Shown here: positions 1,697-27,468 of the stretch, piece by piece | Layout of the letters: each line of letters starts with the position of its first letter | Position numbering within the stretch: the first letter of the stretch is position 1 | IMG/VR virus record: IMGVR_UViG_3300022929_000148 | Location: 1-28,319 of that record | Reading direction: 5' to 3' (one strand) | DNA length: 28,319 nucleotides | DNA from: a virus | Made by a program: the position numbers and the translations under genes | The notes under the pieces: model-generated | The model's database searches: none | What the model was told of the DNA's origin: nothing | What the model saw: only the letters and a program-made list of their open reading frames with translations

Positions 1697-1725
1697 TGGG
1701 AGCCTTCGGGCTCCCAAGCCTTTTT
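1697..1725 (+). terminator. UUCG-capped hairpin after the capsid gene
   Basis: An 8-bp perfect stem (TGGGAGCC / GGCTCCCA, 1697-1704 and 1709-1716) closes a TTCG tetraloop, and five T residues follow at 1721-1725. It starts 8 nt after the capsid stop and ends just before the next gene. It can act as an intrinsic, probably leaky, terminator or as a 3' stabiliser of the abundant capsid mRNA. The T-run is short and separated from the stem by 4 nt. Confidence 0.75.
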
Positions 1726-1734
1726 GGAAAATAA

Positions 1735-4087: not shown

Positions 4088-4093
4088 GGTTAA

Positions 4094-4112
4094 GAAGAGA
4101 TAAAATCTCTTT
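4094..4112 (+). other. Hairpin in the leader of the tail tube gene
   Basis: A stem of 7 Watson-Crick pairs (AAGAGAT / ATCTCTT, 4095-4101 and 4105-4111), extendable by one G-T pair, closes a 3-nt loop. It fills the only gap between terminator and tube genes and ends directly at the GGAG ribosome site (4113-4116), which is 7 nt before the ATG. No U-run follows, so it is more likely an mRNA stability or processing element than a terminator. Confidence 0.5.
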
Positions 4113-4123
4113 GGAGAATACAC

Positions 4124-5230: not shown

Positions 5231-5239
5231 AAATAATTC

Positions 5240-5268
5240 TTGACTTTTTGATATTGCTTTTGTATAAT
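5240..5268 (+). promoter_or_regulatory. Sigma70-type promoter upstream of the chaperone and tape measure genes
   Basis: TTGACT (5240-5245) and TATAAT (5263-5268) are separated by 17 bp, one mismatch from the bacterial housekeeping consensus. Transcription would start near 5275, and a G/C-rich hairpin follows at 5281. It lies in a true intergenic gap. It could supply extra transcripts for the chaperone-tape-tip operon. Confidence 0.65.
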
Positions 5269-5280
5269 TATAAAATCTAT

Positions 5281-5306
5281 GGGGGAGTTCTACTCCCCCT
5301 TTATTT
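5281..5306 (+). terminator. Hairpin after the tail tube gene / in the chaperone leader
   Basis: A 7-bp perfect stem GGGGGAG / CTCCCCC (5281-5287 and 5293-5299) with a TTCTA loop is followed by TTTATTT. It can terminate, partly, transcripts from the tube gene. It also lies about 6 nt downstream of the predicted start site of the 5240-5268 promoter, so it would form the 5' end of that promoter's mRNA. Which role dominates cannot be told from the sequence. Confidence 0.6.
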
Positions 5307-5327
5307 AAACTACAAAAGGATGTATTT

Positions 5328-5756
5328 ATGAGTGAGATTTCTCTAAAAACTTTGATGAAACCCTCCATGACCGTTTCGATTGATTTTCCGGGCATGTTGG
5401 GTTTTTCTGTGGAACTCTGTTATTTAGCCCGAGAAGAGTTATTAGCACTCCGCAAAAAATGCCTTAACAAAAAATTCAATCGTTCAACACATCAAGCAGA
5501 AGAAGTTTTAGATGATGATAAATTTCTTACTGAATACTGTAAAGCCGTAATCAAAGGATGGTCTGGCCTGAAGTTATCTTATTTAGAAGAGCTTCTATTA
5601 GTAGATACAGATGGTATGGACCCTGATGCAGAATTGCCTTATTCTCAAGAAGAGGCAGAAATTCTGATGAAAAACTCAGGCTCTTTTGATACATGGGTTA
5701 CAGAAACTTTGGGAGATCTTGAAAATTTTACGAAAAACAAGTCGAAGAATGCCTGA
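5328..5756 (+). CDS. Tail assembly chaperone, zero-frame product (lambda gpG-like)
   Basis: The 142-aa acidic protein lies between tube and tape measure, the fixed place of siphophage tail chaperones. These coat the tape measure and recruit tube subunits, and are not part of the finished virion. It starts with MSEISLKTLMKPSMTVSIDFPG and contains predicted helices around residues 30-60 and 95-135. AAGGA at 5316-5320, 7 nt before the ATG, is the ribosome site. The gene ends at TGA 5754-5756 inside the loop of a stem-loop that follows a slippery heptamer. A minority of ribosomes should therefore shift to the -1 frame and make a 275-aa fusion, as in lambda G/GT. Assignment is by position and frameshift signal; sequence family is not otherwise recognised. 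Confidence 0.78.
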   Translation: MSEISLKTLMKPSMTVSIDFPGMLGFSVELCYLAREELLALRKKCLNKKFNRSTHQAEEVLDDDKFLTEYCKAVIKGWSGLKLSYLEELLLVDTDGMDPDAELPYSQEEAEILMKNSGSFDTWVTETLGDLENFTKNKSKNA

Positions 5757-5764
5757 GACTTGTT
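5723..5764 (+). promoter_or_regulatory. Programmed -1 ribosomal frameshift signal
   Basis: The heptamer A AAT TTT (5723-5729) is in the correct zero frame (codons AAT, TTT) and fits the X XXY YYZ rule. After a 6-nt spacer comes a perfect 8-bp stem, AACAAGTC (5736-5743) with GACTTGTT (5757-5764), whose 13-nt loop contains the zero-frame stop. The -1 frame has a TGA at 5720-5722, immediately before the heptamer, and is open from 5723 to 6154. All three elements therefore agree on this site. Confidence 0.87.
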
Positions 5765-6154
5765 GAAAAAAGTATAACTCAAGAATCCGACATTTCTACG
5801 GAGAAATACCTAGAAATGTGTCGTCAGCTGGGCAAAGAACCAGACCCCTCTCGAATACCCGTATCTATAAATAATTTTCCTGAAGAAGTTCAGTATGCTT
5901 TTTTAGTCTTTCAACATATGCCTGACAGGTGGGAAGGAATGTCAGGCACTTATATGGGAAAAGATTGGTCAAGCGCTGAGTTTTTTCTCGATCTTTTTAA
6001 TGTGGAAGACAGAAAAATTGTAGTCTTCTTTATTTCAAAAATAGAAAGTTTTTATACAAAAGCTACAAATGAAAAGCTGCAAAGACAGAGAAAGGCTGAA
6101 GAGCGAAGAGCCAAAGCGGGTGGTAAACAGTACACCCATAATGTGCAGGGATAA
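5729..6154 (+). CDS. Tail assembly chaperone, -1 frame extension (lambda T-like part of GT)
   Basis: Read through the slippery site, the -1 frame adds 141 residues (YEKQVEECLRLVEKS... to THNVQG) to the first 134 residues of the upstream chaperone, giving a 275-aa fusion. An ATG at 5816 exists, but its only ribosome-site candidate (GGAG near 5800) is about 12 nt away, so independent translation is unlikely. The segment has acidic helices and a basic tail (KLQRQRKAEERRAKAGGK), a pattern seen in T domains that bind tube subunits. It ends in a TAATG overlap with the tape measure gene. Confidence 0.8.
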   Translation, partial: YEKQVEECLRLVEKSITQESDISTEKYLEMCRQLGKEPDPSRIPVSINNFPEEVQYAFLVFQHMPDRWEGMSGTYMGKDWSSAEFFLDLFNVEDRKIVVFFISKIESFYTKATNEKLQRQRKAEERRAKAGGKQYTHNVQG

Positions 6155-9100
6155 TGGCAAAAACAGTTAAAGTAAGTATAGTTGTAGATGACGATGGGAC
6201 AATGCGTCTTACAGAGAGATCTGCTAGTAGACTCGGAACTAGCTTAAATAATGTTGGTGTTAGTGCTCGTCGCGCTGAAAGAGGTATAAAAGGCACTGCT
6301 CAAACTGCTAGTGCGAGCGGTAAAAACTTTGGAAAGCAGGCTTCAATTATTTCAGGAGGTCTTGTTCCAGCATATGCCACTTTAGCTGCTCAGGTTTTTG
6401 CTGTGTCGGCAGCTTTTAGTTTTTTAAAAGATTCAGGAAATTTACAACTCTTACAATCGGGACAAGAAGCTTACTTTGCTGCTACAGGTATTTCTACTCG
6501 TCAGCTTACCGAAGATATTATTCGAGCAACAGATGCACAATTAAATTTTACTGAAGCCGCTCAGGCAGCCGCGATAGGTACCGCAGCAGGCTTAAATTCA
6601 GACCAAATAACGAGACTAGGCAGGGCCGCTGCTGATGTGTCTCAAGTATTGGGACGAGATTTAACAGATTCTTTTAATCGTTTAGTCCGGGGTGTAACAA
6701 AAGCCGAACCAGAACTTCTTGATGAATTGGGTATAATTCTTCGTTTGGATGACGCCACAAGAAAATATAAGGAATCGTTAAATATTAGTGGTGAGTTAAC
6801 AACTTTTCAAAAAAGTCAAGCGGTAACTGCAGAAGTTCTAGGTCAGGTAGAAGAAAAGTATGGAAGAATACTTGAGGTTGTAGGAAGAAGTTCCAATCAG
6901 TTCTCTCAATTAGAAAAAGTATTTACAGACTTGACAAAAAGGTTTAAAGAGTTTGCAGTGATAGCTACAGGGCCTATAGTCGAAATTTTAAAAGAATACC
7001 CCGTTCTTTTAGTAGCAGCTTTTACTCCTTTTCTGTCAACTGTTTTATCCGCAGCTTTACCAGGGCTTTCTACTTTTGGGGATAAACTTTCTAAGCTAAG
7101 TTCAAAGGCTTCAGATTTTGCTGATAAAACAAGAAAAAGTGCAGAAGAGCTACAACAACAAGTAGCAAAAGCAGGGGGCACAAAAGAATATCTTGCAAAT
7201 CTAAGAACAAGGTCTAGTAGCGAAGCCCAAGCTTTGGAAACCTCTAAGAAGCTTCGCAAAAATGCCCTTCTCCAGCAACTAAGAGATGGAAAAACACTTA
7301 GCCAAAGACAAATTTCTACACTGAAAAGACAAATTGAAACAGAACAGCTTTTGTTTAAAAAAGGAAATGTAAGAAGAAAAAGAGATTTTTTAAAAACTCT
7401 TGCTGAGATGCAAGCTGCAAATAAAGCCTCAAGTTCAGCTATGGCCAGAGATTTTAATGTAAGTATTGCGAGTAAACAAGCATCTCTTATCTCTTTTGGA
7501 GCTTCTGGATTAGGGGTTTTTGCCACTTTATCTGCTGCTGCAGCAGGTTTTGGTACAGTTCTCACTTTTGCTCTGAGTGCTCTTTCTTGGATTACTCTTA
7601 TAGCAACTTTAGCTGCTGTAGCATATGCTTTTTTTAGGGCTAAGAAGGAAACTCAAGAAACCAAAGAAGAAATAGACTTATTAGGGGAAAAAGTAGAATC
7701 TGCTGAAAAAGAATTACAAAAATTTGTGCAGGTTCAAAATATATTATACGAAGGATCTATTAACGCTTCTCAAGGAGTAGCCGAGTTAGCGAAAGCTTTA
7801 GGTAATATTAGTCAGGGCGAGCTATTTGCAGCTTTTGAAAAAATATCAGAAGGTCCTCAAGCTGGTCAGCTTAAAAATGCGAAAGAGCTAGAAGATGCTT
7901 TTGTATCTTTGGCAGAAGCTAATAAAGAGAGATTAGAGGCTATTAGAGAAGCAGAAGATAGAGAACTTAAATATGCGAACGCTGCTTTAAAAGTACAAAA
8001 AACTCATAAAGATGTTTATGATAATTATATAAAAATAATGAACGAGGCGAGTGAAACAATACGCACTCTAAAAGACGGTACAGAAGGCTACTTAGATATT
8101 CTTGAAAAATCTTCTAATAAAAGTATCGCAGGATTCGCTTCCAGAATTAAGCAGGAAAGACAAGCTGTTCAGGGATTAACTAGTGAATTCCTTAAAAGCA
8201 GGCCTGCAACTATAGATTATTTAAATGCTATTGAAAACTTTGATAAAGGTATAGCAGGCTCAGAAGAAGAATTAAAAAGAGCTAGAAAAGCTTATCTTGA
8301 TTTGGGAAAAGAAATAGATTCTGTAACAAAAACCACAAAAGATAATATAACCTCTACTAAAAGATTTTTTCAGGGTTTTTATCCTGAAAGTGAGACCCAA
8401 AGGAACTTAAGGGCCCTAGAATTAGAAAACCAATCTCTTCTTGATTTAGAAAAATCTTTGGGCGGTTTAGATGAGGCACAAAGAAAAAGGCTAAAGAATG
8501 TAAAAGAATTAATTCCTGTTATTGCACAATTAGCCGAACAAGAAAAAAAGAGAGCGGAGGCTCTTGATTCTATAAACTTAGTATATACTCAACAGTTAAA
8601 AGGGGCAACTAATCTTCAGAAAACAGAACTCAAACTACAGAAAGATATAAAAACAAAAACTAATGAAATAGCATTAGCACAACAGAACAAAGGAAACATA
8701 TTGTCTACTCAACTAAAAAGCCAAATAGATTATGTACGACAGTTGAAAGAGGAAGGAAGAAGTGAAGAATTTATTGTACAAGCCGTTTTAAATAAAAATA
8801 AAGCAGCAAAAGATGGTATAGATGCAGAAGATAGAAGGATAGCGCAGTTGACCGCAGAACTAGACCTACTCCAAAGACAAACTGTAGCTGCAAAAGAAAT
8901 AGCTGATAATGCTTTTCAATCTTTTGAATCTAATCTTCAAAAAGGCATATCAGATCTTATAAAAGGAGCCGAAAAAAGCTTTAAAGATTTTGCATTAAAT
9001 GTTACTCTCGGGGTTCTTAACACTGTAGCAGATACTCTAGCAAAACAATTAACCTCCTCTATAGTTAATTTTATAAAGCCAAAAGGCAAAACTATAGATG

Positions 9101-9987
9101 AAAAAATAGATGATGTTTTAAAGATGACCACTCTTCCTAAACAAATTCATGATGCAATAGTATCGGCAGGAAACCACATAGCTCAAACATTTGGTATTAA
9201 AACTAGAACTACTCCTTCAGGAGGTGCCTCACAGTTGGGGCCTGTTTCTGAGTTTACTAGTAATCCTTTAGCGGCTGGAGCTGATCCTTTGAACTTACAA
9301 GATCAACTTAACCAACAAATAAAACAGGGAATTGTTCCCAAAAAAGGATTTTTTGAAACACTTTTTGGGAAAAAATCAACTGGCAGAACCCTTAATCAAG
9401 AGGGTAACGATATAATAGTAGGAGATGCACAGGATCGAGGCGTAAGAACCGGAGGAATATTTAGTAATTTTATTAGTGATTTCTCAGATGTTTTTGATAA
9501 AAATTCCGAAGGTGGTTTTTTAGAGAAATTAGGTCTAGCTTTTTCAAGTTTTGGGGAAGGATTAGTAGGTTTATTTAAATCTTTGCCAGATCTTTTAGGG
9601 GGTTTGTTTAAGGGGTTTGGCGGATTTTTCGGTGGAATATTCGGCGCAGCCGCTGGAGGTATCATGCCTGGAGGAGTTACTGGATATGCGAACGGAGGAA
9701 TTGTTAAGCGGCCAACACTAGGGCTTGTTGGCGAAGGTAAGATGAACGAAGCCGTTGTACCTCTTCCGGATGGAAAAGCAATTCCAGTTTCAATGAAGGG
9801 TGCGGGTCAAAATAATAATGTAACTGTGAATGTTTCTATGGACAGTCAAGGAAATTCACAAACTGATAGCCAAAGCGATGGACAGCAGGGAGCAAACTTA
9901 GGCAAATTAATCGCTGGCGCAGTGCAAGAAGAGTTACAAAGACAGAAAAGGCCGGGCGGAATACTTAGTCCGTATGGAGCAGCATAA
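6154..9987 (+). CDS. Tape measure protein
   Basis: The 1277-aa protein is the longest gene of the tail-assembly block and sits right after the chaperones. It sets tail length; by the usual rule of about 0.15 nm per residue the tail would be near 190 nm (inference). Hydrophobic segments are seen at about residues 67-92, 279-305 and 440-495, and a Gly/Phe-rich one at about 1128-1169, consistent with a channel-forming role during DNA entry. Long charged heptad-like helices fill about 500-980. The C-terminus has the typical tape measure ending (ANGGIVKRPTLGLVGEG, NEAVVPLPDGKAIPV). Start and stop both overlap neighbours by TAATG. Confidence 0.93.
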   Translation: MAKTVKVSIVVDDDGTMRLTERSASRLGTSLNNVGVSARRAERGIKGTAQTASASGKNFGKQASIISGGLVPAYATLAAQVFAVSAAFSFLKDSGNLQLLQSGQEAYFAATGISTRQLTEDIIRATDAQLNFTEAAQAAAIGTAAGLNSDQITRLGRAAADVSQVLGRDLTDSFNRLVRGVTKAEPELLDELGIILRLDDATRKYKESLNISGELTTFQKSQAVTAEVLGQVEEKYGRILEVVGRSSNQFSQLEKVFTDLTKRFKEFAVIATGPIVEILKEYPVLLVAAFTPFLSTVLSAALPGLSTFGDKLSKLSSKASDFADKTRKSAEELQQQVAKAGGTKEYLANLRTRSSSEAQALETSKKLRKNALLQQLRDGKTLSQRQISTLKRQIETEQLLFKKGNVRRKRDFLKTLAEMQAANKASSSAMARDFNVSIASKQASLISFGASGLGVFATLSAAAAGFGTVLTFALSALSWITLIATLAAVAYAFFRAKKETQETKEEIDLLGEKVESAEKELQKFVQVQNILYEGSINASQGVAELAKALGNISQGELFAAFEKISEGPQAGQLKNAKELEDAFVSLAEANKERLEAIREAEDRELKYANAALKVQKTHKDVYDNYIKIMNEASETIRTLKDGTEGYLDILEKSSNKSIAGFASRIKQERQAVQGLTSEFLKSRPATIDYLNAIENFDKGIAGSEEELKRARKAYLDLGKEIDSVTKTTKDNITSTKRFFQGFYPESETQRNLRALELENQSLLDLEKSLGGLDEAQRKRLKNVKELIPVIAQLAEQEKKRAEALDSINLVYTQQLKGATNLQKTELKLQKDIKTKTNEIALAQQNKGNILSTQLKSQIDYVRQLKEEGRSEEFIVQAVLNKNKAAKDGIDAEDRRIAQLTAELDLLQRQTVAAKEIADNAFQSFESNLQKGISDLIKGAEKSFKDFALNVTLGVLNTVADTLAKQLTSSIVNFIKPKGKTIDEKIDDVLKMTTLPKQIHDAIVSAGNHIAQTFGIKTRTTPSGGASQLGPVSEFTSNPLAAGADPLNLQDQLNQQIKQGIVPKKGFFETLFGKKSTGRTLNQEGNDIIVGDAQDRGVRTGGIFSNFISDFSDVFDKNSEGGFLEKLGLAFSSFGEGLVGLFKSLPDLLGGLFKGFGGFFGGIFGAAAGGIMPGGVTGYANGGIVKRPTLGLVGEGKMNEAVVPLPDGKAIPVSMKGAGQNNNVTVNVSMDSQGNSQTDSQSDGQQGANLGKLIAGAVQEELQRQKRPGGILSPYGAA

Positions 9988-10364
9988 TGGCACTTGGAGT
10001 TAATGTCGGAGGAGTAACGGGGTTTGCAAATCCAGATAAAAATCTAAGAAAATCTACTAAACCTCGAGTTCTCAAAGTTTCTTTTGGAGATGGTTATGAA
10101 CAGCGTCTTCAAGACGGGATTAATAACTTAACCCAAAATTTTGCAATCTCCTTCAATAATCGCTCAAAACAGGAAATTGACGACATTGTAGATTTTTTTG
10201 ATGCTCAAGCAGGCGTTACTGCTTTTGACTTTACTTTTCCAGACCCTGACGGAGGAGGCGGAGAGACCACAATTAAAGTCGTATGTGAAGACTATAACCA
10301 AATTTATGTAAATAATGAAATTAATTCATGTTCTGCAACTTTTCGACGAGTATATGAAGCATGA
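9987..10364 (+). CDS. Minor tail protein, lambda gpM-like
   Basis: The 125-aa protein has the gpM family signature VLKVSFGDGYEQRLQDGIN near residue 27, followed by FAISFNNRSKQEIDDIVDFFDAQ, a pattern found across lambda-type minor tail protein M. Length matches the family (lambda gpM 109 aa). It is a tail-tip component next to the tube. The gene follows the tape measure and precedes the gpL homologue, as in lambda, and overlaps that gene by ATGA. Confidence 0.87.
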   Translation: MALGVNVGGVTGFANPDKNLRKSTKPRVLKVSFGDGYEQRLQDGINNLTQNFAISFNNRSKQEIDDIVDFFDAQAGVTAFDFTFPDPDGGGGETTIKVVCEDYNQIYVNNEINSCSATFRRVYEA

Positions 10365-11488
10365 CAGATATTATAAAAACCGTACAAAAACAAGACCCGG
10401 GCTCAGAGTTAATTATACTATATGATTTAGAGTATGCCGAAGGATCTTTTGCTCATTTTTTTAAAGGGCTTGATGATGACCTAACCGAAATTCAGTTTAG
10501 AGATTATTCAGGAACTGTGCTAACTTATGTAGCGATACCTATTCAAGCGGAAGGATTTGACATAAATTCGGACGGCGCTTATTCAAGACCAGAAATGACT
10601 GTAGCCAATATAGAAAGTGTTTTTTCTGATGAAATAGGCGGATTAGACTATCAGGATTTAATAGGTAAGAGATTGACTCGAAGATGTACTTTAAAAAAAT
10701 ACTTGGTTGGAGAGTCTAACGATTCAGGAGCAGGAAACGCTCCTGTAGAGTTCCCTAGGATGGTTTATGTAATAGATAGGCTTAAAAGCAAAAATATTAT
10801 TTCTGCAACTTTTGAGTTGGCAGCTCCTTTCGATTTAGCAGGAATACAACTTCCTAGAAGAACTGTAGTTGGTGGTGCATGTACTTGGCAGTATAAAGGA
10901 TTTGCTCAAAAAAGAGGAGGATGCACTTGGCAAAATCTTAGTCAGGGGGGCGGCACCGTTTATTTAAACGAGTTTGATGAGTATATAATTCCAGCTAGTA
11001 CTACATTTAATCCTGTAGGTTCTTCGGTAATACAAAATTCTTACTATAGCACTAGTACAACTCTAAATAGGGTCAATGCAGATGGCACCATTACTAGTAT
11101 TTCTGCAAATGATTACTGGCAAGCCTTGCAAAGCCAATCTAGTCCAGTATCTTCACCTTCCGACTCTGATAATTTTAACTGGAGAAGAGTGAGAGTCTAT
11201 GAGACTTCTTTCTCCGGTACCGTATACACCTATAAAGAATCCAGGCATAATACTAATATTTTAGATTCAGGTACTTTATGGAGAGTTAAAAAGACTCATG
11301 TTTATGGGGCTGAAAGTTTTCAGGAAGGGGCTTTTTGGACTGCAGGGGACAAATGCGGAAAAAGAGTAAATTCATGCGCATTGCGTTACAGAGCAAAAAC
11401 TGGAAATGCTCCTGTAGGCGGCGCAAATGTAGATCAAAATAACAACCATCTTAGATTTGGCGGATTTCCGGGTGCACAACAAAGATAA
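10361..11488 (+). CDS. Minor tail protein, lambda gpL-like, with a large insertion
   Basis: The 375-aa protein is a gpL family tail-tip hub component. Lambda gpL binds an iron-sulfur cluster by four cysteines, spaced closely. Here the matching set is C174 (GGACTWQYKG), C188 (RGGCTWQ), C332 and C339 (KCGKRVNSCALRY). Between the second and third cysteine is an extra segment of about 140 residues (192-331) rich in Ser/Thr/Tyr, which makes the protein much longer than lambda gpL (232 aa). C109 is a further cysteine outside the set. The 3' end overlaps the gpK homologue. Metal binding is inferred from the cysteine pattern. Confidence 0.87.
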   Translation: MTDIIKTVQKQDPGSELIILYDLEYAEGSFAHFFKGLDDDLTEIQFRDYSGTVLTYVAIPIQAEGFDINSDGAYSRPEMTVANIESVFSDEIGGLDYQDLIGKRLTRRCTLKKYLVGESNDSGAGNAPVEFPRMVYVIDRLKSKNIISATFELAAPFDLAGIQLPRRTVVGGACTWQYKGFAQKRGGCTWQNLSQGGGTVYLNEFDEYIIPASTTFNPVGSSVIQNSYYSTSTTLNRVNADGTITSISANDYWQALQSQSSPVSSPSDSDNFNWRRVRVYETSFSGTVYTYKESRHNTNILDSGTLWRVKKTHVYGAESFQEGAFWTAGDKCGKRVNSCALRYRAKTGNAPVGGANVDQNNNHLRFGGFPGAQQR

Positions 11489-12173
11489 AGAGATATTAGA
11501 ATACTTATCAGAAATTTATCCAGAAGAGGGCTGCGGCCTCTTAGTTAATAAAAAGGGTAAAATTTATTGGGTTCCCTGTGAAAATGTAGCAGAAAACAAA
11601 AAGGAAGACTTTATAATTTCGGCAGAAGACTACATAAAAGCTAGCCTTTCTGGTGATATATATGCAATAGTACATAGCCATCCAGATTCTAGCTGTGAGC
11701 CGAGTGATTACGACAAAAAAACTAGTGATTTTTTGGGTATACCTTTTATTATATATTCTTTACCAAGTTTTGAAAAATACGAATATACCCCTAAAAAGTT
11801 AAGAAATCCTTTATTAGGTAGAGATTATAGTTTTGGGCAGAGCGACTGTTTTTCATTAGTTAGAGATTATTATAAACAAGAACTAAACTTAGATATTCCA
11901 ACTATTCTTTTTGAAGACGACTGGTGGGATAAGGGATTAAATTATTTTGATACTCTATTTGAAAGTTTCGGCTTTGTAGAAGTAGAAAGTCCACAAAAAC
12001 ATGACGGTATAATATTTAATGTATTTTGTAATGTTCCAAATCATTGTGGCATATATTTGGGAGAAGATATTTTTCTTCACCACGCTATAAACAGGCTCTC
12101 TTGTAGAGAATCATTACACTCCGGTTGGGGTCAGCACGTAACGAGATATGTAAGATGCAAACAGTTTATTTAA
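11472..12173 (+). CDS. Tail tip protein with JAMM and NlpC/P60 domains, lambda gpK-like
   Basis: The protein (233 aa from GTG 11472) has two hydrolase domains, as lambda gpK. An N-terminal MPN/JAMM domain shows a Glu in YPEEGCGLLV and the zinc motif HSHP with SDYD downstream. A C-terminal NlpC/P60 peptidase domain has the catalytic Cys in GQSDCFSLV, a His in NHCGIYLG and a further HH pair. Such domains open peptidoglycan during DNA entry or process tip proteins. I chose GTG 11472 because TTGGCGGA lies 7 nt before it; a longer frame to TTG 11457 would add 5 residues and has no better ribosome site. The gene overlaps gpL by 17 nt and gpI by 19 nt. Confidence 0.88.
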   Translation: MHNKDKEILEYLSEIYPEEGCGLLVNKKGKIYWVPCENVAENKKEDFIISAEDYIKASLSGDIYAIVHSHPDSSCEPSDYDKKTSDFLGIPFIIYSLPSFEKYEYTPKKLRNPLLGRDYSFGQSDCFSLVRDYYKQELNLDIPTILFEDDWWDKGLNYFDTLFESFGFVEVESPQKHDGIIFNVFCNVPNHCGIYLGEDIFLHHAINRLSCRESLHSGWGQHVTRYVRCKQFI

Positions 12174-12934
12174 ATGGCGGTATTGCTCAATTTGGTGAGA
12201 AGTGGAATACAAATTGCAATACTATTAGAGATATTTTTAAATTAATCGAGTGCCAGACTCCAGGTTTTCGTAACTATTTAATTCAAGCTTACGAAAGTGG
12301 TGTGGGATTTGACATTAAAAGAGGTTCTGAATTTTTACAAGAACCAGAAGAGCTTCTTCTCTCTTTAAACAATGAAGATATTATTATTACAGAAGTTCCA
12401 GCAGGTTCCAAATCAGGAGGAGCTAAAATACTCGCAGCAGTTGTTTTAGCGGTGGCTACTGCGGGAGCGAGTAGCTTTTTAACAGGACTAGGGGACCTTG
12501 CTGCTTATGCTGCAGGTTCAGCAGAGGCGGGAGCAGCATATTATGCTGCAGCAGCGACTGTCGCATCCGTCGGAACTACTCTCGCTATAAATCTTGGCAT
12601 AAACGGAGTCACTCAACTTTTAGCCCCCGGACCTGAAACAGAACCGGACAGTCGAGAAAGTTATTTATTTAATGGTCCCGTAAATACTGTCGCACAAGGA
12701 ATTCCAATACCAATTCTATATGGAGAACTTGTGGTTGGAGGAGCTCCAATAAGCACTTACTATAGCTCTTCCCCGATTTATCCTCAGGCAGAAATTCAAT
12801 TGGGAGAGTTTACATTTCCAATTACTGGGTCTTCTGGATTGGCTAGTGCACAAAGCTATGAGCAAGCCCAACTAATTTCATCTTTTATTTCCCCAGAAGA
12901 AATAGAAAAACTAGGTGCTCAGGTTATAGGTTAA
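12155..12934 (+). CDS. Tail assembly protein, lambda gpI-like
   Basis: The protein (259 aa from ATG 12155) begins with a beta-grasp-like part (VYLNGGIAQFG ... TIRDIFKLIECQTPGFRNYL), as gpI proteins do, and then has two hydrophobic Ala/Gly-rich stretches (KILAAVVLAVATAGASSFL; YYAAAATVASVGTTLAINLG) followed by LLAPGP and a Pro/Tyr-rich end. In lambda gpI is needed for tip assembly but its exact role is unclear. A frame to TTG 12125 would add 10 residues inside gpK; the ATG gives a natural start (MQTVYLNGG). The position between gpK and gpJ is canonical. Confidence 0.83.
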   Translation: MQTVYLNGGIAQFGEKWNTNCNTIRDIFKLIECQTPGFRNYLIQAYESGVGFDIKRGSEFLQEPEELLLSLNNEDIIITEVPAGSKSGGAKILAAVVLAVATAGASSFLTGLGDLAAYAAGSAEAGAAYYAAAATVASVGTTLAINLGINGVTQLLAPGPETEPDSRESYLFNGPVNTVAQGIPIPILYGELVVGGAPISTYYSSSPIYPQAEIQLGEFTFPITGSSGLASAQSYEQAQLISSFISPEEIEKLGAQVIG

Positions 12935-12943
12935 GGAATATAA

Positions 12944-15900
12944 ATGCCAAAAATAACAGAAAATCAATATGGAACAATAACTGACTTAATTTCTGAAGGT
13001 GAAATAGAGGGGGTAGTTGGTGGACAATCCGGTATTTATTATAACGGAGTAGCTTTATCCTCGGAAGAAATCGTAGTAAGTCTACAAGGAGGTCTAAGAT
13101 TTATAGATGTATCGGGAACTTCTATTACTAATGCTAATGGTTTATTTGCAGGCATTGATTTAGCGGGAAGAGGGCCAGATAAATATATTCAAATTCAGGG
13201 AGCAGGTAGAGCTACTACCTTAGACTCTAATGTTTCCGCAGGTTCCGATGAAATCACTGTAACAACCTCCAATTTCTTTTTAGAAAAACACACTAAGCAC
13301 TTTAGAAGCGATGCTAGAAAAGTTTCGCTCAATGATAATCTAAAGCATACTCTTCGAATTGAGGGAGCGGGGCCAGACGGCAGGGAATATGTAGGGGTTA
13401 TTACAGGATTTACAGGCTCTTTTGATGAAATTGCTACTATATATCCTCCTATTGGCACTTCTGTAAGCTCTGGTGCGGCAGTCTCTGTAGACGAAGTAAA
13501 AAAATTAGTAAGTATAGGCTCCTCAGATACTGCTACTCTCGACTCCGCAGTGGAAACTGATGTAACTCAAGCGAGAGCAAAGCTTTCTTCTGGAAGTACA
13601 AACTCTAGTTTTATAAACAATCAAAATGATAATACTACATATGATAATGCGTGGTCTTACGTAAAAAGAGGCTCAATAACTCAACTACCTTTCAGGATGA
13701 GTAATAATACTCCTTCAGCCTCCTATATTATTGGCGTTGGACAAGATTTATCTTTTTGTAGTTTAGGCACTATTGGAGGAAATCAAGCTCCTACTTTTAT
13801 TAGCTCTACCTCTTTTAATTTTGGACAAAACTCTGTACAAGAAATAGATAAATTACAAGTAGATATAGAGTTTCCTGGGGGTTTACAATTAAATGGAAGG
13901 GACGGAGAAAGTAGGAATGCTTATGCTGAGTTTCAAATTATACTGCTTTATAAAACTTCCTCGACTCAATCTAATTTTACCAAAGAACTTATACATGGTT
14001 TTGACTATGGAGGTTCGGAATTTATAGATGGTATAAATGTGGGAGGAACATACTACTGGAATAAGGGAGATGGAGAAACTTCTTCTGTATATGATAAGTT
14101 CGATCAATATAAAGATTTCTATGAACGAGGTCCCACGTCAGGACGTTATAGAAAAGATGTAACTAAAGGAAGTAGAGGGGACGCTCTTATATCTAAAAAA
14201 GGGCAAAATACTAGCTTTATCGCAAGTTACGAAATCGACTTAAAAGATTATAAACCTTTATTTGATTGGCAAATAGAAATAAGAAGAGTATCTCCCTCTA
14301 AAGTAGGAGAATACACTTATAATAATAATTCTTTTATTGCAAAAGCTGTGGTTAAGAGTGTTACTGCTAGTATAACTGATCTTTTCTCCTATCCAGGAAC
14401 ATCCTACGCTGTTAGTGCTTTCTCTGCAAAAGATTTCAGTTCCCCACCTGCTAGAGCTTACCACCTACGAGGTAAAAAAATCGCAGTTCCAGATAACTAC
14501 ATTACAAGAGAAGAGCTTTCTAGTAATCAAGCAGAATATACTAGAAACAGTTCAACTGGAGATAGAGAGTCTTCTTATCAATCGTGGACGGGCGGGTTTA
14601 GGCAAGAATTAGTTTACACTAATAATCCTGCGTGGGTTTTTTATGATATTCTTACTAATACAAGATACGGTCTTGGAGATTTTTTAAAAACTTCTGATAT
14701 AGACATTTTTGCTCTTTATCAGATTGGTCGTTATTGTGATGAGCTAGTTCCAGACGGGAAAGGAGGTTTAGAACCTCGTTTCTCTTGTAATGTATATTTA
14801 AAGTCTCAGCAAGAGGCGTACAAAGTACTAAAGGATTTAAATAGTACTTTTCGCTCTATGATGTTTTGGATAGATGGTAAAATTACCTCCGTTCAGGATA
14901 AACCAAAAGAACCTGTATATACTTTTACACAAGGCAATGTAGAGAATGGGCTTTTTGATTATACTTATACAGGACAAAGAGCTAGAACTAATCAAGTAAA
15001 CGTAAGTTGGAATGACCCTACTCAATTCTATAAACAAACCGTTTTAACTATAGATGATACCGCTAATATAATTTCCCAAAACAGAATAGTTTCAAAAGAT
15101 GTAGTAGCTTTTGGCTGTACTTCCCAAGGGCAGGCTAGAAGAGTTGGTAACTGGCACCTAGCAACAGATACCAAAGAAACGGAGATAGTAAGTTTTACTA
15201 CTTCTATTAATGCTTCTTTTCTGCGTCCTGGAGATATTATTAATGTTCAGGACAAAAACAATTTAAATATAGAGGCTAGCGGTAGAGTATCTACAGGGTC
15301 TACTACTACTTCTATTAACTTAGATAGGTTAGTAGATTTTCCAGGCTCTGGAACTGTTGGAACAGACTGTAATTTATACCTCATATTTACAGAGCCTTCT
15401 TTCTTTCTTCAGCAAGAATCGGCTACTATAAATGGTCAAACATATGAGAGGGGAGCTTTATTATTAGAAGATTCTTCTGCCCAACCTCTGATTGGAGAAG
15501 AGCAAGGTATAAATTTACTGGACGATAGCGGAGACCCTGTAGTAGTACAGTACAGCAAAAATACTCGAGTAGAAGTCAAAGAAATTACAAATTCGGGTAC
15601 TAGTGCTTCTACTATTACAGTTTTAGGCGCTTTTACTTCAGCCCCCGAACAAGACACTATATGGGCTATTAGTAGACAGGAAGATGTTTCTACACAAGAG
15701 ATAAAAGAATTTAGAATAGCTGGAATAACAGAAGAAAATGGTTATAAATATAGCATTGCCGCAACCCAATACCTTAGAGAAAAGTTTGACGAAATAGAAA
15801 TAGATAAACCTGTTTTTACTACAAAATATGTTGCCGAAGCAGGACGCAATGAAATTCCTCCAGAAGTAGGAACCGTTTCTGTGGTTTTAGAAAATACGGG

Positions 15901-18900
15901 GTCTTTTGGCGAAGAATCCGTAGGAAGCTCAACCAAAGCTGTAATTAACTGGAGCCCGGCTGTAGAAACTTTTACAGACTCTTTAGGGACTACTTCAACT
16001 ATTCCTTATAGATTTTTAGGTGGATACAAAGTTATTCATGATTTACGGGGTAAAAATGAATTTGATACAGAGACTGTAATAGTTCCTGCAGGCCAAAATA
16101 CTTTAGAAGTTTCCGGAGTTGAAGCTGGAACTTATAGAGTTACAGTTATAACTTTAAACGATGGAGATCCCAGAACAGAGTCACTACCTAAAACTGTTAT
16201 ACGAACAATATTTACAGCTCCTCCCCAAAATGGTAGAATTACTAGAATAAGTAAGGGTGGTTTTATTACTTCTTCTATTTCTTTTAATTCGTCTACAGGT
16301 TTATTAACCATAGAAAAACCATCTTATACTTATAGCCCTCCTTCAGGCGTAGATTTTTTCTCCACTGCCGGAAGTCCATTATTTAACCAAGAAGATTTTT
16401 CTTCTCTAGGTGATGGAGAGACTGCGTACTTTTTTTACGACGCATCGTCTGCTGAAGCAGGCTCAGACCCTTGGAAAGCGGTTCAGCTTCATATAGACAA
16501 TATAAATGAAGATCCTGATGGAAATATTACTCGCTTTACTTATATTAAAGATTTAGGTTCTTCAACCAATGGATTAACAGCTATTTCAGGAACAGTAAAT
16601 ACAGTTTCTGGCAGTAATATTGTTACAGGCTCTTCTACTACATTTACTTCTGATTTTTCTGAAGGTGATTTTATCAAAGTTTCATCAAATTCTTCTGCAG
16701 GAACGGAAGTTGCAGAATCTGAATATAGAGAAATTGTAGAAATAACTGATAATGAAACTATAGTTGTTAAATATCCATTTTTACGTACTCAAACAGCAAA
16801 ATTTGGTTTTAAACAAACTGTAGCTCCAGACGTCTCAAAAGATGTAATTCTCGCAGAAATAAGCAGAACTGGAAGTATTTATTCAGCCGATGTTTTTGTG
16901 CAAACCAGAGGAGAAAACGGAGCTAGTGTTGATATCATTTTTCAAAGAAGTGCGACCCAGCCCGAAGCTCCTGATCCGTCTGAAGGACTTCCAGGAGGCA
17001 GTCCTGCTTGGTATACAAATCCTCCTTCGGGGACGCAGTTACTCTGGGCTAGCAAAGGCACAAAGGACGTTGGAGATATTGAGTTTACTTGGGGAACTCC
17101 GTATCAGGTAGAGGGCAGCGCTGTAGTTGAAATTGCTATATATAAGAAAGACGATAGTAATACTCCGATGGGAGGCAGTTATAATTTTACCACTAACTCT
17201 TTAAACACTACGGGTTTAACTGTTGGGTGGTCTCAGACGCCACCTTCTTTATCGAATAATCTTGAATCCGTCTATAAATCTGTCGCATTATTTGTCGGAA
17301 GCCCAGAAGAGACTTCTGCAAGCGCTACTTGGTCCGCCCCAGCTGTGATTGGTTTTCGACAGGACGGATCAATAGGAAATGATGCGAAAGCTGTAAAACT
17401 TACTCCTTCCTCTTTTGTAATTAATTACAGCACTGCCGGAGCAGAAAGCGACTCTATTACTTTTACTACCACTGTTCAGAGTATTTCAGGAAGTCCAACG
17501 TATAGTTTTTTAGTGGATGGAGTTGAAAAACAAAATTCAACTACCTCTACATTTACCCTGGCCGATGCAGACGAGCCTGATATTGGAGAAGTAGTTGAAG
17601 TATCCGTGGAAGTTTACGATACTACTCCATCACTGCTCGCTACAGATTCTGTAAGTATTTATGCAGTTCAAGACGGTTCCGATGCGATTATTGGCTTTCT
17701 TACTAATACGGCACATACTGTTTCGGCGGATAATTCGGGAACAGTGTCTTCTTTTTCAGGGGCGGGAGGAACTTTTAAAGTATTTGTTGGAGGAACAGAG
17801 GTAACCACTTCTTGTACTTTTTCTGTTGTGGGCAATCCGGCAAATACTACAACAAGCATTGACGCGTCTACCGGAGTCTATGATATCACAGCTTTGAGTG
17901 CAAATCAAGACAATGTTACATATCAAGCTGTAATTCCAGCAGCTACTGCGGGCACTTCGAGTGATGTCACAATTACCTCAATTTACAGTATCTCAAAATC
18001 TATTAAAGGGAACGTAGGGGATGACGGAGCAAGCCTTGACATTATTTTTCAAAGATATGATATCTCTCAAAGTCCTAGTTCTCCTACAGCTCCAAGCCCT
18101 TCTTCAGGTACTCCAAGTGGTTGGGATACAAATCCTCCAGCCGGTACAGACACTTTATTTGCTAGTCAGGGTGTAAAAGCTGTTGGAGCTACAAATTTTA
18201 CTTGGGGAACTCCGTATCAGGTAGAAGGCACCTCTGTAGCAGAAGTATATATCTATAGAAAGAATAATAGCGATGAAGCGACTGGAGGTAGTTATGACTT
18301 TACTACAAATACTTTAACTCAGCCTACTGATTGGTCTATCGCCCCTCCCGCTTTAACAAACGATGGCGACGAAGTCTATGTCGCTGTAGGTCTGTTTAGT
18401 GGACCACCTACAGCTACCTCAGCAACAACTACTTGGTCTACTCCAGTAGTATATGCTAAAAGAACTGATGGTATATCGGCTGATGTAGATATTATTTTTC
18501 AAAGATATGATATCTCTCAAAGTCCTAGTTCTCCTACAGCTCCAAGCCCTTCTTCAGGTACTCCAAGTGGTTGGGATACAAATCCTCCAGCCGGTACAGA
18601 CACTTTATTTGCTAGTAATGGAACTAAAGAGGGCGGAGCTACTAATTATACTTGGAGTACCCCATATCAAATCGAGGGCACCTCTGTAGCAGAAGTATAT
18701 ATCTATAGAAAGAATAATAGCGATGAAGCGACTGGAGGTAGTTATGACTTTACTACAAATACTTTAACTCAGCCTACTGATTGGTCTATCGCCCCTCCCG
18801 CTTTAACAAACGATGGCGACGAAGTCTATGTCGCTGTAGGTCTGTTTAGTGGACCACCTACAGCTACCTCAGCAACAACTACTTGGTCTACTCCAGTAGT

Positions 18901-20302
18901 ATATGCTAAAAGAACTGATGGTATATCGGCTGATGTAGATATTATTTTTCAAAGATATGATATCTCTCAAAGTCCTAGTTCTCCTACAGCTCCAAGCCCT
19001 TCTTCAGGTACTCCAAGTGGTTGGGATACAAATCCTCCAGCCGGTACAGACACTTTATTTGCTAGTAATGGAACTAAAGAGGGCGGAGCTACTAATTATA
19101 CTTGGAGTACCCCATATCAAATCGAGGGCACCTCTGTAGCAGAAGTATATATCTATAGAAAGAATAATAGCGATGGAGCGACTGGAGGTAGTTATGACTT
19201 TACTACAAATACTTTAACTCAGCCTACTGATTGGTCTATCGCTCCCCCCGCTTTAGATTCAGATACAGATAAAATATATGTCGCTGTAGGTCTGTTTAGT
19301 GGACCACCTACAGCTACCTCAGCAACAACTACTTGGTCTACTCCAGTAGTATATGCGGAAAGACAAGACGGTACTAATGGGGTCGCTCTCAATCTTACTG
19401 CGAGTCCCGTATCTTTTGCGTATGACGGAAGTGCTTATGACCCAGATGGAACTTCTACCGTCTCTCTATCAGCTTCTGGCGGAACAATTACATCTGTTAC
19501 TTATAGCGATGATGTTGCAGCGGCGATTGGAGCAGTAGCTACAGGAGATACCGCAGGAAGTACTTTTACTTTTCAAAATGATTTATCCTTGGCAAACGCA
19601 AAAGCAAGTGCCACTGTAACCGCAGCAGTTACTGGAACCGATTCGAAAGGCAATACAGAAGTTTCTTTTGGCTCAATTTCTGCAAAAATACCTGTAACTA
19701 TACAAGGAACGGATGGAGTAAGCATTACAGGGCCTAGGACTACAACTGGACATATATACTATCAATCAAGTACAGTCGATGCCCCAGATTTTCCCTCAGA
19801 GGATAATGTTACATATAATTGGTCAACCGGACGCTTATCGGGAGGAGTTATAGGAACTGGAAGCACAAACTGGAATCAAAATCCACCTACGTTCGCCTCC
19901 GGAAATAGTAATAAGTATTGGTATGTTCCATATAGTGTAACCGAAGCGAGTTTCGGAGGGCAAATAGCAGTTGATTTTGTTGGCTCAACTGTTTATCAAG
20001 GAATTGGGTTTAGCGGTCTAGTAACTTTTACTAGTGGAGAATTAACAGACGGCGTCTCTACTTTTAATCCTGCAGATAAAATAGATGACGGCGGAGCAGC
20101 AGCAGATGTAAATTCTAATATTACCACAATTAATGGCGGAAAGATTACTACGGATTCTATTACTGCTACCCAGCTTCAAATTTCTAACCTAGCTGCAGAC
20201 CCTACTGGCAATGAGGATGGAATATTTTTAGATGGAACGAGTAATAATATTAAGATATTTGCAAACGGAGTACTTCGAGTAAAAATAGGCAGCTTAAGCT
20301 GA
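12944..20302 (+). CDS. Central tail fibre / host-specificity protein, lambda gpJ-like, with internal repeats
   Basis: The 2452-aa protein is about twice the length of lambda gpJ (1132 aa). The N-terminus (GTITDLISEGEIEGVVGG, then SGIYYNGVAL) is the gpJ signature. Hub domains follow to about residue 960, including PAWVFYDILTNTRYGLGDFL and a fibronectin-like region near 985-1085. A module near 1215-1285 reads VNTVSGSNIVTGSSTTF...GDFIKV. Residues 1330-1477 are a diverged repeat, 1480-1690 contain Ig-like modules, and 1699-2148 are three 150-aa repeats nearly identical in DNA. The end (INGGKITTDSITATQLQISN) is like gpJ C-termini that bind receptors. AAGGA precedes the ATG. The protein forms the tip hub and central fibre. 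Confidence 0.92.
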   Translation: MPKITENQYGTITDLISEGEIEGVVGGQSGIYYNGVALSSEEIVVSLQGGLRFIDVSGTSITNANGLFAGIDLAGRGPDKYIQIQGAGRATTLDSNVSAGSDEITVTTSNFFLEKHTKHFRSDARKVSLNDNLKHTLRIEGAGPDGREYVGVITGFTGSFDEIATIYPPIGTSVSSGAAVSVDEVKKLVSIGSSDTATLDSAVETDVTQARAKLSSGSTNSSFINNQNDNTTYDNAWSYVKRGSITQLPFRMSNNTPSASYIIGVGQDLSFCSLGTIGGNQAPTFISSTSFNFGQNSVQEIDKLQVDIEFPGGLQLNGRDGESRNAYAEFQIILLYKTSSTQSNFTKELIHGFDYGGSEFIDGINVGGTYYWNKGDGETSSVYDKFDQYKDFYERGPTSGRYRKDVTKGSRGDALISKKGQNTSFIASYEIDLKDYKPLFDWQIEIRRVSPSKVGEYTYNNNSFIAKAVVKSVTASITDLFSYPGTSYAVSAFSAKDFSSPPARAYHLRGKKIAVPDNYITREELSSNQAEYTRNSSTGDRESSYQSWTGGFRQELVYTNNPAWVFYDILTNTRYGLGDFLKTSDIDIFALYQIGRYCDELVPDGKGGLEPRFSCNVYLKSQQEAYKVLKDLNSTFRSMMFWIDGKITSVQDKPKEPVYTFTQGNVENGLFDYTYTGQRARTNQVNVSWNDPTQFYKQTVLTIDDTANIISQNRIVSKDVVAFGCTSQGQARRVGNWHLATDTKETEIVSFTTSINASFLRPGDIINVQDKNNLNIEASGRVSTGSTTTSINLDRLVDFPGSGTVGTDCNLYLIFTEPSFFLQQESATINGQTYERGALLLEDSSAQPLIGEEQGINLLDDSGDPVVVQYSKNTRVEVKEITNSGTSASTITVLGAFTSAPEQDTIWAISRQEDVSTQEIKEFRIAGITEENGYKYSIAATQYLREKFDEIEIDKPVFTTKYVAEAGRNEIPPEVGTVSVVLENTGSFGEESVGSSTKAVINWSPAVETFTDSLGTTSTIPYRFLGGYKVIHDLRGKNEFDTETVIVPAGQNTLEVSGVEAGTYRVTVITLNDGDPRTESLPKTVIRTIFTAPPQNGRITRISKGGFITSSISFNSSTGLLTIEKPSYTYSPPSGVDFFSTAGSPLFNQEDFSSLGDGETAYFFYDASSAEAGSDPWKAVQLHIDNINEDPDGNITRFTYIKDLGSSTNGLTAISGTVNTVSGSNIVTGSSTTFTSDFSEGDFIKVSSNSSAGTEVAESEYREIVEITDNETIVVKYPFLRTQTAKFGFKQTVAPDVSKDVILAEISRTGSIYSADVFVQTRGENGASVDIIFQRSATQPEAPDPSEGLPGGSPAWYTNPPSGTQLLWASKGTKDVGDIEFTWGTPYQVEGSAVVEIAIYKKDDSNTPMGGSYNFTTNSLNTTGLTVGWSQTPPSLSNNLESVYKSVALFVGSPEETSASATWSAPAVIGFRQDGSIGNDAKAVKLTPSSFVINYSTAGAESDSITFTTTVQSISGSPTYSFLVDGVEKQNSTTSTFTLADADEPDIGEVVEVSVEVYDTTPSLLATDSVSIYAVQDGSDAIIGFLTNTAHTVSADNSGTVSSFSGAGGTFKVFVGGTEVTTSCTFSVVGNPANTTTSIDASTGVYDITALSANQDNVTYQAVIPAATAGTSSDVTITSIYSISKSIKGNVGDDGASLDIIFQRYDISQSPSSPTAPSPSSGTPSGWDTNPPAGTDTLFASQGVKAVGATNFTWGTPYQVEGTSVAEVYIYRKNNSDEATGGSYDFTTNTLTQPTDWSIAPPALTNDGDEVYVAVGLFSGPPTATSATTTWSTPVVYAKRTDGISADVDIIFQRYDISQSPSSPTAPSPSSGTPSGWDTNPPAGTDTLFASNGTKEGGATNYTWSTPYQIEGTSVAEVYIYRKNNSDEATGGSYDFTTNTLTQPTDWSIAPPALTNDGDEVYVAVGLFSGPPTATSATTTWSTPVVYAKRTDGISADVDIIFQRYDISQSPSSPTAPSPSSGTPSGWDTNPPAGTDTLFASNGTKEGGATNYTWSTPYQIEGTSVAEVYIYRKNNSDGATGGSYDFTTNTLTQPTDWSIAPPALDSDTDKIYVAVGLFSGPPTATSATTTWSTPVVYAERQDGTNGVALNLTASPVSFAYDGSAYDPDGTSTVSLSASGGTITSVTYSDDVAAAIGAVATGDTAGSTFTFQNDLSLANAKASATVTAAVTGTDSKGNTEVSFGSISAKIPVTIQGTDGVSITGPRTTTGHIYYQSSTVDAPDFPSEDNVTYNWSTGRLSGGVIGTGSTNWNQNPPTFASGNSNKYWYVPYSVTEASFGGQIAVDFVGSTVYQGIGFSGLVTFTSGELTDGVSTFNPADKIDDGGAAADVNSNITTINGGKITTDSITATQLQISNLAADPTGNEDGIFLDGTSNNIKIFANGVLRVKIGSLS
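16931..17374 (+). repeat. Diverged copy (R0) of the gpJ repeat
   Basis: Residues 1330-1477 of the gpJ homologue (DIIFQRSATQPEAPDPSEG to FRQDGSIG) align over their length with the downstream 150-aa repeat but at moderate protein identity. A 29-bp segment at 17084-17112 is identical to 18197-18225 in repeat R1. It is separated from the tandem array by about 660 bp. Confidence 0.85.
18038..19387 (+). repeat. Three tandem 450-bp repeats (R1-R3) inside the gpJ homologue
   Basis: Copies begin at 18038, 18488 and 18938 with an exact 450-bp (150-codon) period. R1 and R2 are identical over about 126 bp at the start and about 264 bp at the end, but differ across roughly 18166-18226. R2 and R3 share 300 bp (18491-18790 and 18941-19240) with a single A/G difference at 18726/19176, then diverge near the end. 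Each unit runs DIIFQRYDISQSPSSP ... WDTNPPAGTDTLFAS ... WSTPVVYA and probably folds as one beta-rich fibre segment. Confidence 0.96.
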
Positions 20303-20357
20303 TAAATTTTCTATAAAAATGCTGTATACAAAACGAAAAGCATCGAAAAAATAAATC

Positions 20358-20386
20358 TTGACATTAGGCTATTCAGTTGTTATAAT
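20358..20386 (+). promoter_or_regulatory. Consensus sigma70-type promoter before the adhesin genes
   Basis: TTGACA (20358-20363) and TATAAT (20381-20386) are both perfect, with a 17-bp spacer. It lies in the 142-bp gap after the gpJ stop. The start site would be near 20393, followed by a 7-bp hairpin and then the first adhesin-region gene at 20445. It is oriented to transcribe the whole right-hand gene set. Confidence 0.8.
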
Positions 20387-20404
20387 TTTTCCATAATCGC
20401 TGAA

Positions 20405-25137: not shown

Positions 25138-27468
25138 ATGGCAGGCGAAAGAAAATATACTCGGATTCCGCCCGAAAGCACAGGTGATCGTATACTCATG
25201 ATTCATACTGCCGAAATTCGGTATGACGGAAAAAACACTAATCATCGGTGGCAGATCGGAGAAATGTATATGCTCTCTGGAGGAGCTGAGTCCAACAATG
25301 ATTTTATGTTCCATGTGCATGGCGTAATAGAGGAGACCTCTACTGCAGGTGTTTTGGCTGTTCACTATAATAAAACTGCTCGCCACCAAGGGTATACTCC
25401 AGAAGATAATCAGCTTATTCAATACGAAGGAGCTACTGTTGCTACTGTAAATGGTGCTCCGGAAGACTTATATATTCCTGGCTATAATATTATGGGGTAT
25501 GATAATCCTGAGTATGGGTTGGATATTGATGTTCAGGGTTCAGCAAATGTAAGATTTACAGAAGGTCAGCCACAACTTGATGCTTGGGGAAAACTAAGAA
25601 CAGCCGGAGCAACTCTTCTCGGGGACTATGTATTTTCTTCTTTGGGCGTTTTACAAGAGAATTTTTCTACAGTAGCGACACAAGCAGGGGCGAGCGCTAC
25701 CTTCGGGAGCGAAACATCTTTTGTTCGATATGATAATGATAAAAGAGGTGTAGATGTTGGAGTCACTAATCCAAGCGATCTCGCAACTGCTACTGCAAAA
25801 ACCTATCATCATTATGTTGCAGGCTCTTCTCACCTATTTATGGGAACTTGTCTATTTAATGAAGCCGGCACTGTAAATTCCCCTACAAATAATGGAGCGA
25901 GCCGTCGATTTGGCTTATTTGACGCAAAAAATGGGTTTATGTTTCATGTTGGTCCTGATGGCGTTCTATATCTTGAACAAAGAAACTCTAATTCCGGAGC
26001 TAAAGTAGACACGCTTCTAGCTTGTTCAGATTCTGCCACAGCAACAACTCTTGGGATCGATGTTTTTAACGGAGATAAAGTAAATGGTACAAGAGGGGCA
26101 GATAATCCAAGTGGAATGTTACTTGATTTATCAAAAGATAATCAATACTGGATTGATCTGCAGTGGCACGGATCTGGAAGAGTTCGCTTTGGAACATACC
26201 ACAACGGTGCTCGTGTAACCATCCACGAATATTACCATAACAATAGATATGCTCTTCCAATGAATCAAACTGTCTCTCTTCCTTGCTGTACTGCTGTATA
26301 CGGGTATACACAGGCTGAAATTGATGCAAACCCTTACTGGGGCGCTATTGGGGGAATTACAGCAATCGATGCTAATGAAATCTACGTAAGAGAGTTCAGT
26401 CAAGCTGTATGGACAGAAACCGATCTAGATTTGCAGCAGCTCGGAAATCAAAAAACATACTCTACAGGACATTTGCCTGTAACAGGGACTGGATTCAAAT
26501 ATTTATTCTCTCTTGGCATTCAGCCTCTCGCGGATGACGGAGTAGATACAAATCATAGTATTGTAGTACCCACAAAAATCGTAAACATTAATTACGATAA
26601 TAATGTTACCACAACTGGACAGAATCGAGATGCAATTGTGCATTGGAGAGCTTCTACGAACACTGTCCATCATCGACGAGATTGGACACATATTCCTGGC
26701 ACTGTAATGAGAGTATCAACATCTGGAATCAACTACGAAGAGACAAATTCTGATGGCACAAGAATTTTTGAAGATATGTATAATGGAAGAGGAGAAAAAG
26801 ACCTTTCTTCTACATTTATTGGGGTTCAAAAAGGAACGTGGAAACAATCTTCTGATGATGGAGGCACCTACGAACAAGCTTTAACAAGTATTACTGGGTC
26901 TTCCACAGGTGCTACTACAGCCACGGCTGATGCGGGAAATAGCACAACATTGATTGTGGCGGATACTACAGGGATGGAAATTGGAGGAAGCATTACAGGA
27001 ACAAATATTCCTGCGGGCTCTCATATACACGAAGTAGTAGATGGCACAACTGTAGAGATTCGTCCAAATGCAACTACAGGTGCTTTTAGTGGGGGAGAAG
27101 CAATTAATTTTACAATTCCCGTAAAAGTTACTGCAACAGAAGAACGATGGACGCTTCGAGAGCCTTACACAAAAACTTTTGGTGCAAATCCAGGAGGAGG
27201 CCTATATAAAACAAGAAACTTTACTGGGTTAACTCTTTCTGACGACGATGTGTATTTATTTATTACAGGAAGAAACACAGGAGTTCTTTATGCCGATTCT
27301 TCTTTTAGTACTCCTGTAACGAGCACAGGCTCCTATAGTGGTTCTACTGCAGATTTGTTTGGTTTTATCGGCCCAGACTTTATTGTAGATTTCTTTGTTC
27401 ATGAGCAGCTTGAGTACCAAGATCCGCGCGCGATGTTTGTGATAGAGTGGAAAGAGATTAAACAGTAA
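25138..27468 (+). CDS. Large tail-associated protein with ConA-like lectin features
   Basis: The 776-aa protein starts 3 nt after the upstream stop, with GGAGAG as ribosome site. The central part has features of concanavalin A-like beta-sandwich domains seen in phage adhesins: RRFGLFDAKNGFMFHVGPDGVLYL (about 258-281 with preceding residues) and WIDLQWHGSGRVRFGTYHNG then TIHEYYHNN (about 337-368). Residues about 587-660 are a small beta module (TLIVADTTGMEIGGSITG, IPAGSHIHEVVDGTTVEIRP), a kind that recurs in phage fibres. No catalytic residues can be assigned. It is probably part of a peripheral fibre or spike contacting the host surface. It ends in a TAATG overlap. Confidence 0.55.
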   Translation: MAGERKYTRIPPESTGDRILMIHTAEIRYDGKNTNHRWQIGEMYMLSGGAESNNDFMFHVHGVIEETSTAGVLAVHYNKTARHQGYTPEDNQLIQYEGATVATVNGAPEDLYIPGYNIMGYDNPEYGLDIDVQGSANVRFTEGQPQLDAWGKLRTAGATLLGDYVFSSLGVLQENFSTVATQAGASATFGSETSFVRYDNDKRGVDVGVTNPSDLATATAKTYHHYVAGSSHLFMGTCLFNEAGTVNSPTNNGASRRFGLFDAKNGFMFHVGPDGVLYLEQRNSNSGAKVDTLLACSDSATATTLGIDVFNGDKVNGTRGADNPSGMLLDLSKDNQYWIDLQWHGSGRVRFGTYHNGARVTIHEYYHNNRYALPMNQTVSLPCCTAVYGYTQAEIDANPYWGAIGGITAIDANEIYVREFSQAVWTETDLDLQQLGNQKTYSTGHLPVTGTGFKYLFSLGIQPLADDGVDTNHSIVVPTKIVNINYDNNVTTTGQNRDAIVHWRASTNTVHHRRDWTHIPGTVMRVSTSGINYEETNSDGTRIFEDMYNGRGEKDLSSTFIGVQKGTWKQSSDDGGTYEQALTSITGSSTGATTATADAGNSTTLIVADTTGMEIGGSITGTNIPAGSHIHEVVDGTTVEIRPNATTGAFSGGEAINFTIPVKVTATEERWTLREPYTKTFGANPGGGLYKTRNFTGLTLSDDDVYLFITGRNTGVLYADSSFSTPVTSTGSYSGSTADLFGFIGPDFIVDFFVHEQLEYQDPRAMFVIEWKEIKQ

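Follow-up and report, generated by a model that had tools for sequence, protein, structure and literature searches.

The window analysed here is the 28,319-base record of an uncultured lambda-like bacterial virus, and its longest open reading frame (12944-20302, plus strand) encodes a protein of 2,452 amino acids. This is a gpJ-like central tail fibre or host-specificity protein, as the earlier note had recognised: it matches PF13550 in Pfam (E 1e-22, 81 bits against a cut-off of 23) and phrog_31 (central tail fiber J) among the PHROGs (3.7e-116), and its conserved hub region, amino acids 417-805 (14192-15358, plus strand), matches residues 154-519 of the solved λ gpJ, 8iyk_J (phmmer E 6.7e-60). 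By the sequence of its hub region the protein belongs with gpJ/central tail fibre J, and the genes upstream of it stand in the lambdoid tail-gene order tape measure, M-like, L, K, I and J. They are a tape measure gene (6154-9987, PHROG match), an M-like reading frame assigned from gene order only (9987-10364), a Phage_tail_L gene (10361-11488, Pfam match), a gpK-like gene (11457-12173, Pfam matches) in which a JAB peptidase-like domain is fused with NlpC/P60, and a tail assembly gene in the I position (12125-12934, PHROG match to phrog_32); the gpK-like gene overlaps the last of these, whose start is a TTG at 12125. After gpJ, between 20813 and 28067, there are large structural-looking reading frames of 584, 638, 776 and 199 amino acids, and a Pfam scan gave no family for any of them; a PHROG scan that covered the 584- and 776-residue proteins matched the latter (25138-27468) to PHROG 1645 (virion structural). 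Megablast of window positions 10000-20400 against phage records found no match.

Positions 18038-19387 of the gpJ gene are occupied by three tandem 450-bp units, each of 150 codons and in frame, exactly as the earlier note had placed them. Tandem Repeats Finder reports a period of 450 with 2.9 copies, 95% match and no indels at 18041-19363. The units, all on the plus strand, are R1 (18038-18487), which has a private 60-bp island at 18167-18226, R2 (18488-18937), and R3 (18938-19387), which has private bases at 19176 and 19243-19276 and whose similarity to the other units stops near 19356. An older, diverged copy of the 150-residue unit, R0, lies upstream (16931-17374, plus strand) and is 71% identical to R1 in nucleotide sequence over the best-matching 200 bp. 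Across the 450 bp R1 and R2 differ at 21 positions, R2 and R3 at 33, and R1 and R3 at 54, and the comparison of R2 (18488-18787) with R3 (18938-19237) over 300 bp has the single mismatch that had been reported for it, at 18726/19176. The longest exact direct repeat at a lag of 450 is 499 bp (18227-18725 = 18677-19175); elsewhere in the window, at lags up to 6 kb, the longest exact repeat is only 29 bp, which excludes chance as the source of the array.

The differences among the units are ordered along their length. Every difference between R2 and R1 lies at offset 188 or below, and every difference between R2 and R3 at offset 238 or beyond. The two difference sets are thus disjoint, and R2 is a chimera with the 5' part of R3 and the 3' part of R1. 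Since R2 has no private base, its one switch from R3-type to R1-type sequence falls inside a 49-bp interval (18677-18725, plus strand) that is identical in R1, R2 and R3. Just such a product is expected if two copies of a two-unit array recombine once by unequal homologous crossover, and we infer that R2 arose in this way; the crossover would then have to lie within the 49 bp, and the recent duplication suspected in the earlier note can be traced to that one interval. The ancestor would have carried an R1-type unit followed by an R3-type unit, and the exchange would have converted it to R1-(R3/R1 hybrid)-R3. Between R1 and R3, 52 of the 54 differences are packed into 125 bases of islands, with identical stretches of up to 126 bp elsewhere, and a 126-bp identical stretch appeared in none of 20,000 shuffles. 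Synonymous changes are also present in these islands, which, together with the identical tracts beside them, points to recombination or conversion; constraint on the protein sequence would not by itself account for the pattern.

Gene conversion of a pre-existing third unit could also have produced R2. An old three-unit array homogenised by conversion, with no recent expansion, would yield the alternating identical tracts and diverged islands that are seen here; R2 might in that case have received sequence from both of its neighbours. Conversion, however, needs at least two events that together leave no private base in R2, where a single crossover suffices, and a relative, contig L007, carries two units; we consider this origin unlikely and favour the crossover. 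Conversion of the R1 island by R0, with which it has a 29-bp exact run in common, was also considered and was dropped, as the same peptide is found in contig L006 and is explained by shared ancestry.

L007 is about 82% identical to the window in the matching stretch, and its two units have R1-type and then R3-type 3' ends. Deletions in both units (4738-4765 and about 5160) end at the same base (CCCTATCAAATCG), a biological or an assembly effect; because they share this end point the L007 array may be partly misassembled, and we trust it for unit order only. L006 has one unit, and the number of units, with the separate upstream copy R0 left out, is therefore three, two and one in the window, L007 and L006, respectively, in agreement with the earlier suggestion that copy number can change. 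The L006 reading frame that carries the unit (2-5803) encodes a tail-fibre-like protein, and near its C-terminus (about 4600-5000) there is an intein/Hint-like segment, a weak PF14890 match below the cut-off, before a Peptidase_S74 chaperone domain. No bacterial (prophage) relative of the unit was confirmed in a scan of genome contigs.

The number of units in the window itself depends on correct assembly, and contig L005 (IMG/VR 3300022928_002004) bears on it. L005 is 100% identical to window positions 11089-18281 (plus strand) and breaks off at 18281, 55 bases beyond the last base that is private to R1; an assembler word size of 55 presumably lies behind it. The 55-mer at 18281 occurs more than once if the gene has three units but only once if it has two, and for a two-unit gene the word analysis predicts contig stops at 18095, 18331 or 18431 instead. 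With two points of entry into the repeat and six word sizes in common use, about 12 positions in the 7,193-bp contig would qualify, and we estimate the chance of the L005 stop falling there at about 0.2%. Without an R2-type unit the node at which the contig ends would not be repeated; three or more units are therefore likely, and the stop supports the presence of such a unit in the sample from which L005 comes, or in a coexisting strain. A scan for exact matches to the R2/R3-type island in viral contigs found nothing, and a search for the sequence downstream of the array matched only L007, so a contig that continues L005 was not found.

If the real gene had two units and the assembler had looped the 450-bp circuit once too often, words of 21 and 33 bases would give no sign of it, as their sets are the same for two and three units; L005 shows that assemblies do break at the array, and L007 provides an example with two units. 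Against such an artefact, which we judge quite improbable, the three-unit sequence requires words of 55 bases or longer that are absent from a two-unit gene (5 at k = 55 and 77 at k = 127), and the stop of L005 is at none of the positions that a two-unit gene would give. The opposite artefact is less remote, if still rather doubtful: the true array might have at least four units with identical middle units, with three as the outcome of the shortest path through all edges. Simulated arrays of three, four and five units have identical word sets up to 500 bases, and the same unit also forms long, diverged arrays, among them one of at least seven units in a gpJ-like protein of contig L035; parsimony alone favours three. 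Three is thus a lower bound that short reads could improve only through depth: judging from the words, at least three units are likely present, and the assembly sets no upper bound. The findings suggest that arrays of this kind coincide with break points of short-read viral assemblies, and host-recognition genes may consequently often be truncated or miscounted in viral databases. Contig L018 terminates, as L005 does, inside a repeat; it encodes a different unit-bearing protein of 3,023 amino acids, and its 498-bp repeat (12016-12991; two copies, 98%) is of another sequence.

The array sits in an exchangeable distal cassette of the gpJ gene, about 16920-20346. Up to 16920, contigs L087, L088 and L089 share about 96.6% identity with the window; beyond that point their sequence is wholly different, and that of L089 returns to 96.2% identity from 20346. 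The upstream junction (16909-16930, plus strand) encodes G-E-N-G-A-S, and blastn alignments of these three contigs, of L095, L106 and of others end at 16914-16920. Of the distal region, only the C-terminal 60 amino acids (20120-20299, plus strand) retain similarity to the alternative cassette that L089 carries (blastp 41% over 61 columns, 1.7e-6). Alternative cassettes in the relatives contain collagen-like triplets, ITADQIAANQ-type repeats or other domains; that of L106 consists of collagen-like triplets in 63-bp repeats (12141-13131 and 13536-14217, with 15.7 and 10.8 copies at 95-96%) and contains a 286-bp exact run. The end of contig L086 at 16959 was considered as a cassette branch point and dropped as too speculative. 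Near-identical in-frame tandem arrays are found in 14 of 34 gpJ-like reading frames, with periods divisible by three in 19 of 19 cases, counts that are not independent because some of the contigs are near-duplicates. All of these arrays are distal to the core, at residue 1477 or later.

The two halves of the 150-residue unit are homologous to each other (hhalign probability 95%, E 3e-8; 0.2% for a reversed control). In R2, taken as the example, these are half a (18488-18679), recognised by its homology to half b, and half b (18680-18925), both on the plus strand, and many relatives have the b-type half alone, in series. An AlphaFold2 model of a single unit from 35 sequences has a pLDDT of 92, and its half b superposes on residues 478-552 of the DT57C straight-fibre protein pb4 (8hre) with an rmsd of 2.4 Å over 70 residues and a Z of 7.5, a value below 8, where a common arrangement can be enough; the next chain has a Z of 3.0. 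T5 pb4 (7zn2) was also found with the three-unit model. In Foldseek searches of the PDB no E was below 1, and pb4 was singled out only by the second-look alignment. PHROG 3890 (straight fibre) is matched in 9 of 35 units, and PF24168 is matched weakly in 8 of the 35 (best E 0.0033), below its curated cut-off (14.1 bits for R2 versus 27). Searching PDB sequences with a profile of the unit returned only weak beta-agarase chains (E 0.17), and R2 of the window matches none of the fibronectin III, Ig-like or BACON families of Pfam; Big_3_2 is weakly matched in 2 of 35 units. As sequence support is weak, we call half b pb4-like rather than a pb4 domain: in its predicted fold it resembles the decoration domain of T5-type pb4 straight fibres.

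The three-unit model (14 sequences, a single chain without trimerisation) has a pLDDT of 78.5 and a pTM of 0.33, and its linkers, residues 149-154 and 298-303, are under pLDDT 50. The earlier note considered it likely that each unit adds one rigid segment. That idea draws no support from a model with such poorly ordered linkers, and the single-chain prediction favours beads on flexible linkers over a rigid rod.

In our view the array is probably a recent in-frame expansion, by the crossover described above, of a two-domain beta-module of 150 residues in the distal, exchangeable part of a λ gpJ-type central tail fibre, an expansion that would lengthen the fibre or make it multivalent. In the gpJ trimer the units would be strung, as small beta-domains, between hub and tip; added copies would lengthen the distal fibre and multiply its surface-contact domains, its reach might be tuned by copy number as the earlier note proposed, copy number would be changeable by the same recombination, and selection would act through host attachment. 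Such an effect on attachment is plausible rather than proven, in view of two precedents: the C-terminal part of λ gpJ sets host specificity (PMC11101478), and in phage EfV12-phi1 in-frame duplications of 1.8 kb arose repeatedly in the tail fibre, but only during coevolution with its host (PMC6365445).

The units might instead be surface-binding domains, for carbohydrate or protein, that were multiplied for avidity and are not spacers. The distal position and exchangeability of the cassette are in keeping with this, as are the conserved aromatic and proline positions of the unit and the fact that the pb4 match falls on the decoration domain and not on the spike prism. No carbohydrate-binding family is matched by the unit, however, and the T5 study gives pb4 no direct role in host recognition (PMC10038345), so that we hold this alternative to be credible but on balance the weaker one. 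Expansion of a fibre module remains the reading that we prefer. It could be extended to a standing length-and-valency switch in the distal cassette of this gpJ group, in which the array would grow and shrink by unequal crossing-over within populations and coexisting virions of differing unit number would be selected as host surface layers change; we regard this extension as speculative and improbable.

Several known systems share features with the window. Like λ gpJ (PDB 8iyk), its protein has the homologous hub, is encoded after L-, K- and I-like genes and has a variable distal part, but it is 2452 rather than 1132 amino acids long, with arrays of 150-residue units in its distal part, and it has no sequence match to the helical shaft, the straight-fibre prism or the LamB-binding domain of 8iyk. 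The T5 and DT57C pb4 proteins (7zn2 and 8hre; PF24168) likewise belong to a central fibre, and half b superposes on DT57C pb4 at the Z given above; in T5, however, each chain of the spike has two small decoration domains, which are inserted towards its C-terminus (PMC10038345), whereas the window has many in tandem, fused to gpJ. In EfV12-phi1 (PMC6365445) a tail-fibre gene also has an in-frame tandem duplication of variable copy number, which in the window's case varies between relatives (3, 2 and 1). The EfV12-phi1 unit is 1.8 kb and that of the window 450 bp, and the former belongs to an Enterococcus myophage under laboratory selection, the latter to an uncultured siphophage-like virus. The tandem BACON repeats of crAssphage (PMC6949934) are a tail-associated array of beta-domains grown by internal duplications, but that array is older and diverged and its domains are of another family. 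In phage T4, according to the account of Tetart 1996 given in PMC11336670, duplication of a small adhesin domain broadened host range; as described there this is a small tip adhesin and not an array in the fibre body. Tail-fibre domain duplication is thus already documented in T4, EfV12-phi1 and the crAssphage BACON array. In the window an environmental phage appears to preserve the outcome of a single unequal crossover within a host-recognition fibre, an event so far followed mainly in laboratory coevolution, and the window is a new natural example of this known process with an unusually clean recombination record.
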